Source of the DNA: Streptomyces kanamyceticus
GTDB taxonomy: Bacteria > Actinomycetota > Actinomycetes > Streptomycetales > Streptomycetaceae
Direction: 5' to 3'
Assembly: GCF_008704495.1 (NCBI RefSeq)
Contig: NZ_CP023699.1
Span: forward strand, 8,990,001 to 9,054,000
DNA length: 64,000 nucleotides
This document shows, piece after piece, positions 60,479 to 63,890 of the stretch. The position numbers and the translations under genes were made by a program. How positions within the stretch are numbered: the first letter of the stretch is position 1; each line of letters opens with the position of its first letter. The notes below the pieces were generated by a model, which was given only the letters and a program-made list of their open reading frames with translations, searched no databases and had not been told where the DNA came from.

Positions 60479-61795
60479 TCAGGACCGGGCGGCGCCCCGC
60501 AGCGCCACCACGGGGATCACCGCGAGGGCGAGCGTGCCCGCCGCGACCGCGAGGAGCGGATAGCCGCCGCCCGCCACCACCAGTCCTGACGCCATGCCGC
60601 CGGTCGCGCCCGCCAGGGAGACACCGACGTCGACCAAGCCCTGCACGGAGGCGCGGCGTTCCCCCGGCACGGCATCGGTGATCAGCGCTGTGCCGCTGAC
60701 CAGCGCCAGGTTCCAGCCCACGCCGAGCAGGACGAGCGCGCAGGACAGCGCCACCATGCCGGTCGGCGGGGCAAGCGCGGCGACCAGGCAGGCCGCGAGC
60801 AGCACGGCGCCGGACGCGGCCGCCACGGGCAGCCGCCCGATCCGGTCCACGAGCAGTCCGCTCAGCGGCGACGGCAGGAACATCGCGCCCACGTGCAACG
60901 CGATGACGAACCCGGCGGCCTGGGTGCCGTGGCCGTGCCCGGTCATGTGGACGGGCGTCATCGTCATCACGGCGATCATCACCAGCTGGGCGGTGATCAT
61001 CACGGTCGCGCCGGTGACGAGGCCGGGGGCGGGGCGGTCGGACCGTGTGGAACGCGCCGCTGCCGACCGGGGCGCGGGAACAGGGGCGGACGTGGGCGCT
61101 GCGCTCGGCTCCGGCGCCGGTTCCGAGCCCGGCTCGGGCGTCGCACTCGCCTCCGGCGCCGTCCGGGCAAGAAGCAGCGGATCCGGCCGCAGCCACCCCC
61201 ACAGCACGAGACCCGCCGCCGCGTAGGCGACCGCGGCGAGCAGGAAGGGCCCCGCGAGACGCGGAATGCCCCACGCGTGCGCGAGCGCGCCCGTCGGGCC
61301 GACGAGGTTCGGGCCGACGACCGCGCCCAGCGTCGTGGCGAGCAGCACCGTGCCGGTGGCGCGGCCGCGCCGCTCGGGCGGGGCGATGTCGGCGCCCGCG
61401 TACCGCGCGAGGAGCCCGGTCGCGGTACCGGCCCCGTACACGAAGAGCGACGCCAGAAGCAGCCACGCCCACTGCCAGGCGGCGCCCGCGACGACTCCCG
61501 CGCTGCCGAGCGCGGCGGCGCCGTGGCCGAGCGCGAGGCCCGGACGGCGCCCGTGGCGCTGCGAGATGCGGCCGATGGCCGCGGCGCCGACGGCCGCGCC
61601 CCCGGTGAACAGCGCGGTCGGCAGTCCGGCCAGGCCGGTGGAGCCGAGCAGGTCCTCGGCGAGGAGCGCGCCGACGGTGATGCCCGCGGCCATGCCCGCG
61701 CCGCCGAGCGTCTGCGAGACGACGAGCACGGTCATGACGCGCCGTCGTACGTCAGGCGGCGCCGCGCCCCCGGCGCGCGGCGCCGTGACGGTCAT
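60479..61795 (-). CDS. MFS transporter of the RiPP-like operon
   Basis: A 438-residue MFS protein. The ATG 61795 is fixed by an ATGA overlap with the preceding gene; the much longer open frame upstream is a shadow. Twelve hydrophobic segments are visible, with the loop-2/3 signature GRISQRHGRRPGLALG and its counterpart VDRIGRLPVAAAS in the second half. A Pro/Ala/Ser-rich central loop (EPGSEPAPEPSAAP) separates the halves. As the last gene of an operon headed by a small repeated peptide, it most likely exports the mature peptide product or gives immunity (inference). Confidence 0.85.
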   Translation of the reverse strand: MTVTAPRAGGAAPPDVRRRVMTVLVVSQTLGGAGMAAGITVGALLAEDLLGSTGLAGLPTALFTGGAAVGAAAIGRISQRHGRRPGLALGHGAAALGSAGVVAGAAWQWAWLLLASLFVYGAGTATGLLARYAGADIAPPERRGRATGTVLLATTLGAVVGPNLVGPTGALAHAWGIPRLAGPFLLAAVAYAAAGLVLWGWLRPDPLLLARTAPEASATPEPGSEPAPEPSAAPTSAPVPAPRSAAARSTRSDRPAPGLVTGATVMITAQLVMIAVMTMTPVHMTGHGHGTQAAGFVIALHVGAMFLPSPLSGLLVDRIGRLPVAAASGAVLLAACLVAALAPPTGMVALSCALVLLGVGWNLALVSGTALITDAVPGERRASVQGLVDVGVSLAGATGGMASGLVVAGGGYPLLAVAAGTLALAVIPVVALRGAARS

Positions 61796-62355
61796 GCCGG
61801 TGTCCCCGCGACGGCGTCGACGTCCGCGATCTCCGCGAGGGACAGGCCCAGTTGGTCGTGCAGGAACCGCACGACCGTCCAGTGCGGCAGGGCGTCCGCG
61901 TCGAAGGGGCCGAACGCGGCGGTGTAGAGGGGGATCCACCGCAGTGCTTCCTCGGCGGCCGTCTCGCGTCCGGGTTCGGCCTGGTAGGCGTCGTACGACA
62001 CGCTGCGATGGTGGATGAAGTGGCCGCCGGGGAGCCGCTGTTCGCACAGTTCCCGGTACTCGCGGGTCTGCAGGATGAGGTAGTGCCAGATCTCGTCGAT
62101 GTCCTGCTCGACGGGGAGGAAGAGGCCGCCGAGCCGGTCGGGGTGGCGGGAGACGAGGTAGAGGTAGCGCAGACATTCGCGTACTTGGTACGTGACGAAG
62201 GTGGCGTCCGGGGCGTCGGGCCGCTCCGCGAAGTACCGGACCACCTCGTCGTGCAGGGCGGTGCCGAGCAGTTCCTCGGCGGTGGGGGCGGTGCCGTGAG
62301 GCGTGCGGGTGTCCGTGTGCATGGTGGGGTCCTGTGCGTAGGGGCGCGTGGTCAC
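61792..62355 (-). CDS. GRDP-like protein in the RiPP-like operon
   Basis: A 187-residue soluble protein starting at GTG 62355, which overlaps the ligase stop (GTGA); its own stop overlaps the exporter start (ATGA). The core DIDEIWHYLILQTREYREL followed by CEQRLPGGHFIHHRS resembles the WH...Y..C...G..I.H signature of glycine-rich-domain-containing-protein (GRDP)-like domains. The conserved His and Cys could bind metal. I cannot assign a reaction. Its tight coupling to an adenylating enzyme and peptide precursor suggests a modification or recognition role in maturation. Confidence 0.6.
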   Translation of the reverse strand: MTTRPYAQDPTMHTDTRTPHGTAPTAEELLGTALHDEVVRYFAERPDAPDATFVTYQVRECLRYLYLVSRHPDRLGGLFLPVEQDIDEIWHYLILQTREYRELCEQRLPGGHFIHHRSVSYDAYQAEPGRETAAEEALRWIPLYTAAFGPFDADALPHWTVVRFLHDQLGLSLAEIADVDAVAGTPA

Positions 62356-63647
62356 GCCGGGTCCTGCGTGGTCAGCCAGGCGTATTTGCCGGAGCGTCCG
62401 ATGGGCACGTGGTCGAGGTGTTCCACGGTGCAGGCGCGTCCTGTCAACGCATGGACGGACAGGGCGAGTTCGGTCTCGTCGCCGGGGGCGAGCGGCTTGC
62501 CGTCGAAGGTCGTGTACCGCAGGCGGCAGGTCCCTTCCCCGGTCAGGTGCAGCTGCTGCAGGAAGACGCGGGGCGAGACGGCGGCGACGCGGGCGTCGAG
62601 ATCTGCCTGCGCGACCGGCCCTTCGGGTGCGGGCAGGAGCTCCTTCTCGCGGCCGCAGAAGGAGACGATCCGCTCGGGGTCGGTGCCGCCGTCGCTGGTG
62701 CGCACGCAGTCTCCCGACCGGTAGCGGACCAGGGGCATGTACGGATTGCGGACGCTGGTGACGATGAGGCTGTGGATGCCGCTGCCCGGCTCCACCGGGA
62801 TCAGTTCCACGCTCATGTCGTGCAGATAGGGCCGGTAGCCGCCGTCCGCGTCGCTGTAGAAGAGGTAGCCCAGTTCCGTACTGCCGAAGAGGTCGACGAC
62901 GGGGCAGTCGAAGCGGGACCGCAGATACGCGCGGACGTTCAACGGCGCGTACTCATAGGCGTGCACGATGCCGGAGGGACGGGGGAAGCGGTCCCACAGG
63001 TCCCATTCGGTGACCTTGCGGACCAGCTGCGCCAGATGGTTCCCGGAGCAGTCCAGGAGGTACGAGCCGCCGGGGTGCGCGGCACTGACCTCACGGATCT
63101 CGGCGAGCATCCGCTCGACCTCGGCGCGGTCCCAATCGGCGGGGTCCAGGCGGCGGTTGAGGTACAGCGTGCGGTCGTCGAGCCAGCGCTCGCCGGGTGT
63201 CGCGCCGGGCTTGGCGGCGTTGACGCGGGCGACGTGCTCGGTGGCGAGCACGGTGGTCAGGGAGATCCGCCGGGCGCCCTCGTGCCAGCTCGCCGCGAGG
63301 TCGGGGTGCTCGCTCCACAGCCGGTAGTAGGAGCGGAGCAGGAAGTACGGCGGCCGGATGAGCCGCATCCGGGCGTGGTTGGTCCCGGTGGACAGCACGT
63401 ACTCGGCGTCGCCCGCCTCCAGCGCGCGGGCGAGGTCGGGGGTCATCCAGTTGTCGGGGAAGCCCCGGGCGATCTCCGGCTTCTCGAGGATCGGGAACTC
63501 CCCGCGCTCCACGGAGTCGCGGTAGAGGGGGATGTCGCGGACCTGGTCAAGGACGTCGGCGCTCGGCAGGCGGTTCAAGGGGGCTCCGGGGTGGTGGAGG
63601 AGGGGCGGGGCCGCCACCGTGACGGCGGCGGCGGCCCCGTGAAACAT
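62352..63647 (-). CDS. PaaK/LuxE-like adenylate-forming ligase in the RiPP-like operon
   Basis: A protein of up to 431 residues of the phenylacetyl-CoA ligase/acyl-protein synthetase type: LSTGTNHARMRL (P-loop-like), DLFGSTELGYLFYSD (A5-like), LVRYRSGDCVR (A7-like), RIVSFCGREKEL (A8-like) and a small C-terminal domain. The family activates a carboxylate as acyl-AMP and transfers it to a thiol or amine. The ATG at 63647 is the only ATG, but an attenuator-like hairpin lies just after it, and TTG 63578 has GGAG 5 bp upstream, so the true start may be 63578. It lies directly downstream of the repeated Cys peptide, which is the obvious partner: activation of its C-terminus or acylation of its Cys/Lys are options (inference). 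Confidence 0.78.
   Translation of the reverse strand: MFHGAAAAVTVAAPPLLHHPGAPLNRLPSADVLDQVRDIPLYRDSVERGEFPILEKPEIARGFPDNWMTPDLARALEAGDAEYVLSTGTNHARMRLIRPPYFLLRSYYRLWSEHPDLAASWHEGARRISLTTVLATEHVARVNAAKPGATPGERWLDDRTLYLNRRLDPADWDRAEVERMLAEIREVSAAHPGGSYLLDCSGNHLAQLVRKVTEWDLWDRFPRPSGIVHAYEYAPLNVRAYLRSRFDCPVVDLFGSTELGYLFYSDADGGYRPYLHDMSVELIPVEPGSGIHSLIVTSVRNPYMPLVRYRSGDCVRTSDGGTDPERIVSFCGREKELLPAPEGPVAQADLDARVAAVSPRVFLQQLHLTGEGTCRLRYTTFDGKPLAPGDETELALSVHALTGRACTVEHLDHVPIGRSGKYAWLTTQDPA
63606..63639 (-). terminator. Attenuator-like hairpin after the peptide gene
   Basis: Arms CGGGGCCGCC (63606-63615) and GGCGGCCCCG (63630-63639) pair over 10 bp with a 14-base loop, about 16 bp after the precursor stop. 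Partial termination here would give more peptide than enzyme mRNA, the usual arrangement in RiPP operons. Confidence 0.6.
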
Positions 63648-63654
63648 CAGCGGG

Positions 63655-63807
63655 TCAGGAGATGCAACCGGCCTTGCCGGTGGCGCTGATGCAGCCGCTC
63701 TTCGCGGTGGCGCTGATACAGCCGTCCTTCGCGCCCTGGGCGGAGTTGGCGGCGACCCACTTCTGCCACACGGTCTCTTCGGTCATGCGCTTGATGAGCT
63801 GCTCCAT
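63655..63807 (-). CDS. RiPP-like precursor peptide with three GCIS repeats
   Basis: A 50-residue peptide. The ATG 63807 has GGAG 9 bp upstream (TAGGAGAT); the frame is open further upstream but without a site. Residues 1-24 look like a charged helical leader (MEQLIKRMTEETVWQKWVAA). Residues 25-50 are a core of nine-residue repeats, KDGCISATA, KSGCISATG, KAGCIS, ending exactly at the stop. Each repeat has Lys, Gly, Cys, Ile, Ser, and three Cys are evenly spaced. It heads a coupled operon with an adenylating enzyme, a GRDP-like protein and an exporter. I know no RiPP class with this combination. A small repeat protein of another kind is the main alternative. Confidence 0.72.
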   Translation of the reverse strand: MEQLIKRMTEETVWQKWVAANSAQGAKDGCISATAKSGCISATGKAGCIS

Positions 63808-63860
63808 AGTGAAATCTCCTAGCTGATTAGCTTTTGAGGGTGTTTGTCCCCTCGCCATCA

Positions 63861-63890
63861 AACGTAAAGAGATGGTCAAGGGGGTGTCAA
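63861..63890 (-). promoter_or_regulatory. Promoter of the RiPP-like operon
   Basis: Reading the minus strand, TTGACA (63890-63885) and TACGTT (63866-63861) are separated by 18 bp, a good vegetative-type promoter. It gives a leader of about 45-50 bases containing a GAGGG/CCCTC small hairpin (63836-63853) before the peptide start. The region is AT-rich compared with its surroundings. Confidence 0.55.

Follow-up and report, generated by a model that had tools for sequence, protein, structure and literature searches.

What a short peptide carrying three similar Cys-containing repeats does beside an adenylate-forming ligase is the question raised by a small operon of Streptomyces kanamyceticus. 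The genome of this organism is a single 10.1 Mb contig (NZ_CP023699.1), and the operon lies on the minus strand of a 64,000-nucleotide stretch of it (positions 8,990,001 to 9,054,000), which as a whole is called the window here. Its genes follow in the order 50-codon peptide gene, PaaK-type ligase, GRDP-like protein and major facilitator superfamily (MFS) protein, and their nearest named relatives are from Streptomyces. We consider it rather probable that this is an operon for a ribosomally synthesized and post-translationally modified peptide (RiPP) of an undescribed class, in which the 50-residue peptide is modified.

The peptide family and its partner genes

The peptide consists of a leader-like part, MEQLIKRMTEETVWQKWVAANSAQGA, followed by KDGCISATA, KSGCISATG and KAGCIS, the last being the C-terminal end of the protein. 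An earlier examination of the DNA letters (the sequence-only reading) had described a 50-residue peptide whose last 26 residues form three nonapeptides. The frame was read directly and the three repeats stand; the repeated tract is 24 residues long, two nonapeptides and a terminal hexapeptide, and the hexapeptide KxGCIS replaces the nonapeptide as the repeat unit.

A search with the single sequence gave E<=1 for all 83 candidate proteins, the window's own included, and 82 of them scored 1.4e-5 or better (the exception, P0083 from a metagenome, reached 6e-4). Named sources were Streptomyces, Kitasatospora, Nocardia mexicana and Caballeronia. A profile search returned 215 proteins at E<=0.1 among 2200 candidates (120 listed). 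Across 81 loci, namely 80 found through the ligase plus the window, the peptides carry three repeats in 70 cases, two in 7 and four in 4, where only repeats matching G-C-x-S/C are counted as units and lost ones are not. Lys opens 239 of the 240 units counted this way and is followed by a variable residue; Val replaces Ile in 11 units, and one unit ends with Cys. The columns of a 32-row alignment are independent of this pattern. There, the G, C and I of the first two repeats and the K and S of the second were identical in all rows, and the K, G, C and I of the third in 31 rows, the remaining row having no third repeat. Trp14, Trp17, Asn21 and Ser22 of the leader-like part were invariant in 32/32 rows. 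The median proportion of nonsynonymous differences (pN) was 0.175, compared with 0.391 for synonymous differences (pS), over 3240 peptide pairs, with pN below pS in 3186. Judged by these comparisons, the peptide gene is real and old, not a chance open frame, and both the homologues and the pN and pS values are those of a genetically encoded precursor under protein-level selection, as a RiPP requires.

The peptide and its partner genes go strictly together. The 80 ligase loci, the best 80 of 103 found, share ancestry; the peptide was present at 80/80 and the GRDP-like gene at 79/80, the exception ending at a contig edge. With the GRDP-like protein as the starting point, 51 of the 391 genomes sampled in the order, own genome included, had a close orthologue (E<1e-50), and all three genes were present at the 40/40 loci fetched with enough flank; among the 11 of the 51 genomes outside these 40, three (G000, G513, G610) show the peptide. 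A full-length ligase relative (E<1e-200) was found in 7 of 394 genomes of the class, again with the own genome included, and was accompanied by the peptide and the GRDP-like gene in 7/7. One of these seven comes from another family and has a peptide of two repeats ending in GCISKG (L153). The class and order scans scored some of the first-look candidates of each genome. Whether a homologous peptide stands beside homologous ligases in other genomes had been set beforehand as a refuting test, and it does so from both starting points. The operon thus combines a precursor with candidate modifying enzymes in conserved association, and only the ligase and the GRDP-like gene accompany the peptide throughout. 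No peptide or GRDP relative was confirmed in the viral collection, and PHROGs gave no match for ligase, GRDP-like protein or peptide.

A promoter and a ribosome site of the peptide's own, both proposed by the sequence-only reading, gained support from the comparison of upstream regions. A generic sigma-70 scan found 0 promoters at the peptide gene. A TTGAC...TANNNT pair at the right spacing was present upstream of 75/81 peptide genes (mean 0.2, maximum 2, when all upstream regions were shuffled 200 times with base composition alone kept), and the strict 11/11 pattern TTGAC-N6-TTNNN-N6-NTTAC upstream of 61/81 (0 in the 200 shuffles). When up to one mismatch is allowed, a fuller version of the promoter pattern occurs here and nowhere else in the 10.1 Mb genome. 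The 11-bp period is, as we take it, reminiscent of OmpR/SARP-type operators. The AGGAGA ribosome site of the window has GGAG-type counterparts, being present at 78/81 peptide genes (73 GGAG and 5 AGGAG).

The 93 nucleotides from the peptide stop codon fold with z<-2 against dinucleotide shuffles in 60/81 loci, and with z -4.1 in the window. This arrangement of promoter and stem-loop suggests that the peptide is strongly expressed and the enzymes less so: the precursor, in most cases 50-60 residues long, would be produced from its own conserved promoter, and the stem-loop after its stop codon probably holds enzyme expression lower. The stem-loop, which in most loci follows the stop codon immediately, could also belong to an attenuator, in which the peptide would be a regulatory leader sensing cysteine supply for the ligase operon and the stem-loop a terminator. 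We regard this as very improbable. Conservation of the amino acid sequence includes two Trp and the Asn-Ser pair, far from the stem, with pN well below pS, and extends to Caballeronia; the Cys codons are not clustered, and no T-run terminator was found in the window stretch scanned. The regulatory leader was rejected because the protein sequence is conserved and not only the RNA.

The ligase and the proposed acylation

Identification of the second gene as a PaaK-type enzyme, made in the sequence-only reading, is supported by the predicted structure, which shows the PaaK-type fold over both domains. The nearest solved relatives, named here by their PDB titles, are PaaK1, BT_0428, ClxA, AjiA1 and NatL2, at 13-20% identity, and include natural-product AMP ligases with aryl acids bound. 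Core motifs A5, A7 and A8 and the C-terminal Gly-Lys are present (motif names from general knowledge). The LuxE half of the earlier PaaK/LuxE label was not borne out, as no LuxE family appears among the Pfam matches (E<=0.1) of 49 ligase members. Of the two possible starts, TTG is preferred over ATG because of the length of the relatives. The operon ligase differs from the PaaK family in its low identity to solved members, in its P-loop and in falling below the Pfam/NCBIfam cut-offs: it scores 36.2 bits against a curated cut-off of 300 for NF045666, and PF00501 was matched by 1/49 members, at E 0.026. It also differs in company, its full-length relatives in the class all adjoining a Cys-repeat peptide.

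Five distant ligases (25-29% identity) were found in a plasmid collection. In one Klebsiella and one Vibrio record (L114, L115) the gene lies in a nonribosomal peptide synthetase (NRPS) cluster without the peptide or the GRDP-like gene; a Nonomuraea record, where it is unannotated, is likewise without both. The Klebsiella and Vibrio clusters also carry a TauD-type dioxygenase and a class V aminotransferase, and the Vibrio cluster a serine O-acetyltransferase and a cysteine-tRNA ligase gene, neighbours which suggest cysteine-related chemistry.

From these features we propose, tentatively, a specific acyl route. The conserved N-terminal segment (M-x-x-L-I-x-x-M...W-x-x-W-V-A-A-N-S) would act as leader, presumably to be removed, and the two to four C-terminal copies of K-x-G-C-I-S would be the modification sites. 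The PaaK-type ligase would convert ATP and a carboxylic acid to an acyl-adenylate and pass the acyl group to each repeat, most likely to the Cys thiol first and perhaps then, as a relay, to the Lys three residues before it. The GRDP-like protein would act on or with the Cys as a helical partner bearing His and Cys, and the MFS protein, where present, would export the product. Activation of the peptide C-terminus by the ligase, which the sequence-only reading had offered beside acylation at Cys or Lys, is less likely because 3/81 locus peptides end in GCISR and the one at L153 in GCISKG.

The sequence-only reading had also noted that repeat cores are typical of multi-product RiPPs. The core is nearly constant, which speaks against a product library and suggests one conserved product or scaffold. 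A scaffold is central to a different explanation, in which the repeats would not form a released core and would serve as thiol anchors used again and again. Acyl groups would be loaded on the Cys by the ligase and processed there by the GRDP-like protein, and a small molecule would finally leave the scaffold and be exported. Pearlins (PEARL) are known from such peptide-scaffold pathways, and a ribosomal peptide may serve as scaffold in both; the operon differs in having an adenylating ligase and no LanB-like enzyme. A hexapeptide near-constant across genera and phyla is expected of a scaffold rather than of a bioactive core, and the aryl-acid ligases among the closest solved relatives fit as well. 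On the other side, there is no transferase, thioesterase or reductase family among the operon proteins of the window, the peptide has two constant partners only, and the repeat number varies from 2 to 4. We hold a carrier role to be unlikely, and retain modification of the peptide itself as the preferred reading.

In its outline the operon resembles RiPP operons in general, with a small precursor of leader-like and repeated core-like parts, adjacent enzymes in overlapping genes, a stem-loop after the precursor and an exporter. It differs in its near-constant core and in its enzyme pair, for which no described class was found among the literature matches listed. The full-text search, outside which subscription papers mostly lie, gave nothing on this gene set among these matches, and five motif strings occur in no full text searched; this agrees with the earlier statement that no RiPP class is built on this set.

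Several points weigh against the preferred reading. It rests on sequence and predicted structure. The A3 P-loop of adenylate-forming ligases is usually S/T-G-T-T-G-x-P-K; here it is the atypical STGTNHARM, and the model is least confident at this part (predicted local distance difference test score, pLDDT, under 50 at residues 66-69). For the window's operon, Pfam and NCBIfam assign a ligase, a GRDP-like and an MFS protein only. Among its proteins, these collections found no class-defining enzyme of known RiPP classes (lanthipeptide, lasso, YcaO, radical SAM, MNIO, others), no protease or leader peptidase and no RiPP recognition element (RRE), for which no dedicated model or structure comparison was run. 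The core does not show the diversification usual for most RiPP cores, and the Cys of a single repeat has been lost in a few relatives (P0026, P0246, L068, L079). When 296 genomes of the phylum were scanned with the peptide profile, the own genome alone gave a match, with 0/8 other genomes listed from the same genus, and the system is therefore patchy. Finally, the exporter of the sequence-only reading is a member of the MFS family, passing the MFS_1 gathering score with 131.3 against 33.4 bits, and does not belong to the conserved core: it is present in 59 and absent in 20 of 79 tree rows (L008 in this count is cut by a contig end), with at least 13 changes on a quick tree. The product may therefore stay in the cell.

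GRDP-like proteins and Cys-rich tails

The GRDP-like protein scores below the Pfam PF07173 gathering threshold (15.8 against 22.7 bits), and among 56 relatives the family is listed at E<=0.1 for one, the window's own. Its predicted model is all-helical (pLDDT 82), with no clear relative among solved structures, and its invariant residues include D87, W90, H91, Y100, C104 and H116.

Distant paralogues (E 1e-6 to 1e-9) with the motif D-x-x-W-H...T...Y...C...H-H occur elsewhere in the order. The set comprises 24 loci (L149-L173 except L153), 22 of them from the window's genus. In these proteins of ~145-175 residues, a GRDP-like core is followed by a tail that is rich in Cys and variable (for example ADCNEPTCCGDGPCC). 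At least one Cys was present in 23/23 parsed tails and at least two in 20/23, compared with at least two in 3/29 background frames and with a Cys in the last 30 residues of 0/80 operon GRDP-like proteins. L171 and L173, whose long tails appear to result from frame slips, are included in these counts; without them, at least two Cys remain in 18/21. The tail of L170, left out of the count, holds 3 Cys. A quick tree places the paralogues together on one side of a branch, and the three of the 24 that were scanned match no Pfam family. They have the profile match and the W-H...C...H-H motif in common with the operon protein, and differ in carrying the Cys tail in cis; the ligase and the KxGCIS peptide are present at 0/24 paralogue loci (4.5-11 kb read). 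The Cys-tailed paralogues are possibly self-contained modified proteins.

The plant protein AtGRDP2 (GRDP-like / DUF1399) is described as having a Gly-rich C-terminus with interspersed Cys (PMC4299439). The operon protein differs in having no tail, its Cys peptide being encoded by a separate gene, and the likeness to the plant proteins rests on the weak PF07173 match. Read from their architecture, GRDP-like domains would repeatedly be paired with Cys-rich peptides, whether fused to them (in cis) or separate (in trans), and this is the newest step of our argument. Taken together with the ligase, it could amount to a new class of peptide modification, which we put forward with reserve. The K-x-G-C-I-S repeats would be charged by an acyl-adenylate ligase, and the GRDP-like domain would be an enzyme that either modifies Cys or handles a metal. 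Its substrate, the Cys peptide, would come in trans from a separate gene in the operon, would be a tail in cis in the actinobacterial paralogues, and might likewise be fused in plant GRDP proteins.

A closer GRDP relative (E 7e-35) was seen at L147/L214 (1578-2012) beside ATP-grasp-, aminotransferase-, ABC transporter- and PhyH-type dioxygenase-like genes, names that were read from the sequence and not from a family scan. The ligase and the Cys peptide were not seen there.

Operon layout, neighbourhood and meaning

The features of the operon are collected in Table 1. The GTGA overlap of ligase and GRDP-like genes and the ATGA overlap of GRDP-like and MFS genes, pointed out in the sequence-only reading, are both present, each at -4.

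Table 1. Features of the operon in window coordinates
Feature	Position	Strand	Basis or remark
Putative promoter	63861..63890	-	-35 TTGACA (63890-63885), 18-nt spacer, -10 TACGTT (63866-63861); 11-bp spaced repeats TTGAC/TTGAC/TTTAC
Shine-Dalgarno AGGAGA of peptide gene	63815..63820	-	sequence reading; comparison across loci
Precursor-like peptide gene, 50 aa	63655..63807	-	ATG at 63807; homologues, conservation
Strong predicted stem-loop, 14 pairs, between peptide stop codon and ligase gene	63606..63639	-	fold prediction
PaaK-type adenylate-forming ligase, 408 aa	62352..63578	-	from TTG 63578; ATG 63647 (431 aa) possible
GRDP-like protein, 187 aa	61792..62355	-	motif D-E-x-W-H ... T ... Y ... 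C ... H-H
MFS exporter, 438 aa, accessory	60479..61795	-	Pfam match, ATGA overlap

Genes for a SulP-type transporter and a beta-carbonic-anhydrase-like protein lie directly upstream on the same strand, at ~64026-66302 in window coordinates (L002) and just outside the window, both named from sequence and not from a family scan. SulP is near the operon in 43/80 loci, often with a carbonic-anhydrase-like gene, in four arrangements, which changed at least 6 times on a quick tree of the ligase. The pair was rejected as part of the system, given these shifting arrangements and SulP relatives in 375/391 genomes of the order, which make the co-occurrence uninformative.

This neighbourhood has nevertheless a place in one more explanation, in which the Cys repeats would form disulfides or hold a metal, with a GRDP-like protein that loads or protects it and a ligase of secondary importance. 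Three Cys at regular spacing, the Cys-rich tails of the GRDP paralogues, the nearby SulP and a dispensable MFS protein are consistent with it. A ligase as strictly conserved as the peptide and GRDP-like genes argues against a side role, and conservation of the Lys, Gly, Ile and Ser in the unit roughly equals that of the Cys, beyond what metal binding needs. We judge a metal or redox peptide to be improbable, more so than a carrier.

An NRPS cluster neighbours the operon at 37142-58216, with a 5534-residue multimodular frame containing condensation, adenylation, peptidyl carrier protein and methyltransferase domains, followed by a P450, a free-standing condensation protein and a free-standing adenylation protein.

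If the peptide is modified, as we favour, the operon would represent a widespread and unnamed RiPP class, judged by the share of genomes of the order with a close GRDP-like orthologue. Since the repeats are so constant, its product would be one compound, or one family of compounds, common to genera, and may be nearer to a cofactor, metallophore or signal than to a weapon. If true, the pairing with a Cys peptide would also give the GRDP-like domain, a domain of unknown function, a function that can be tested.

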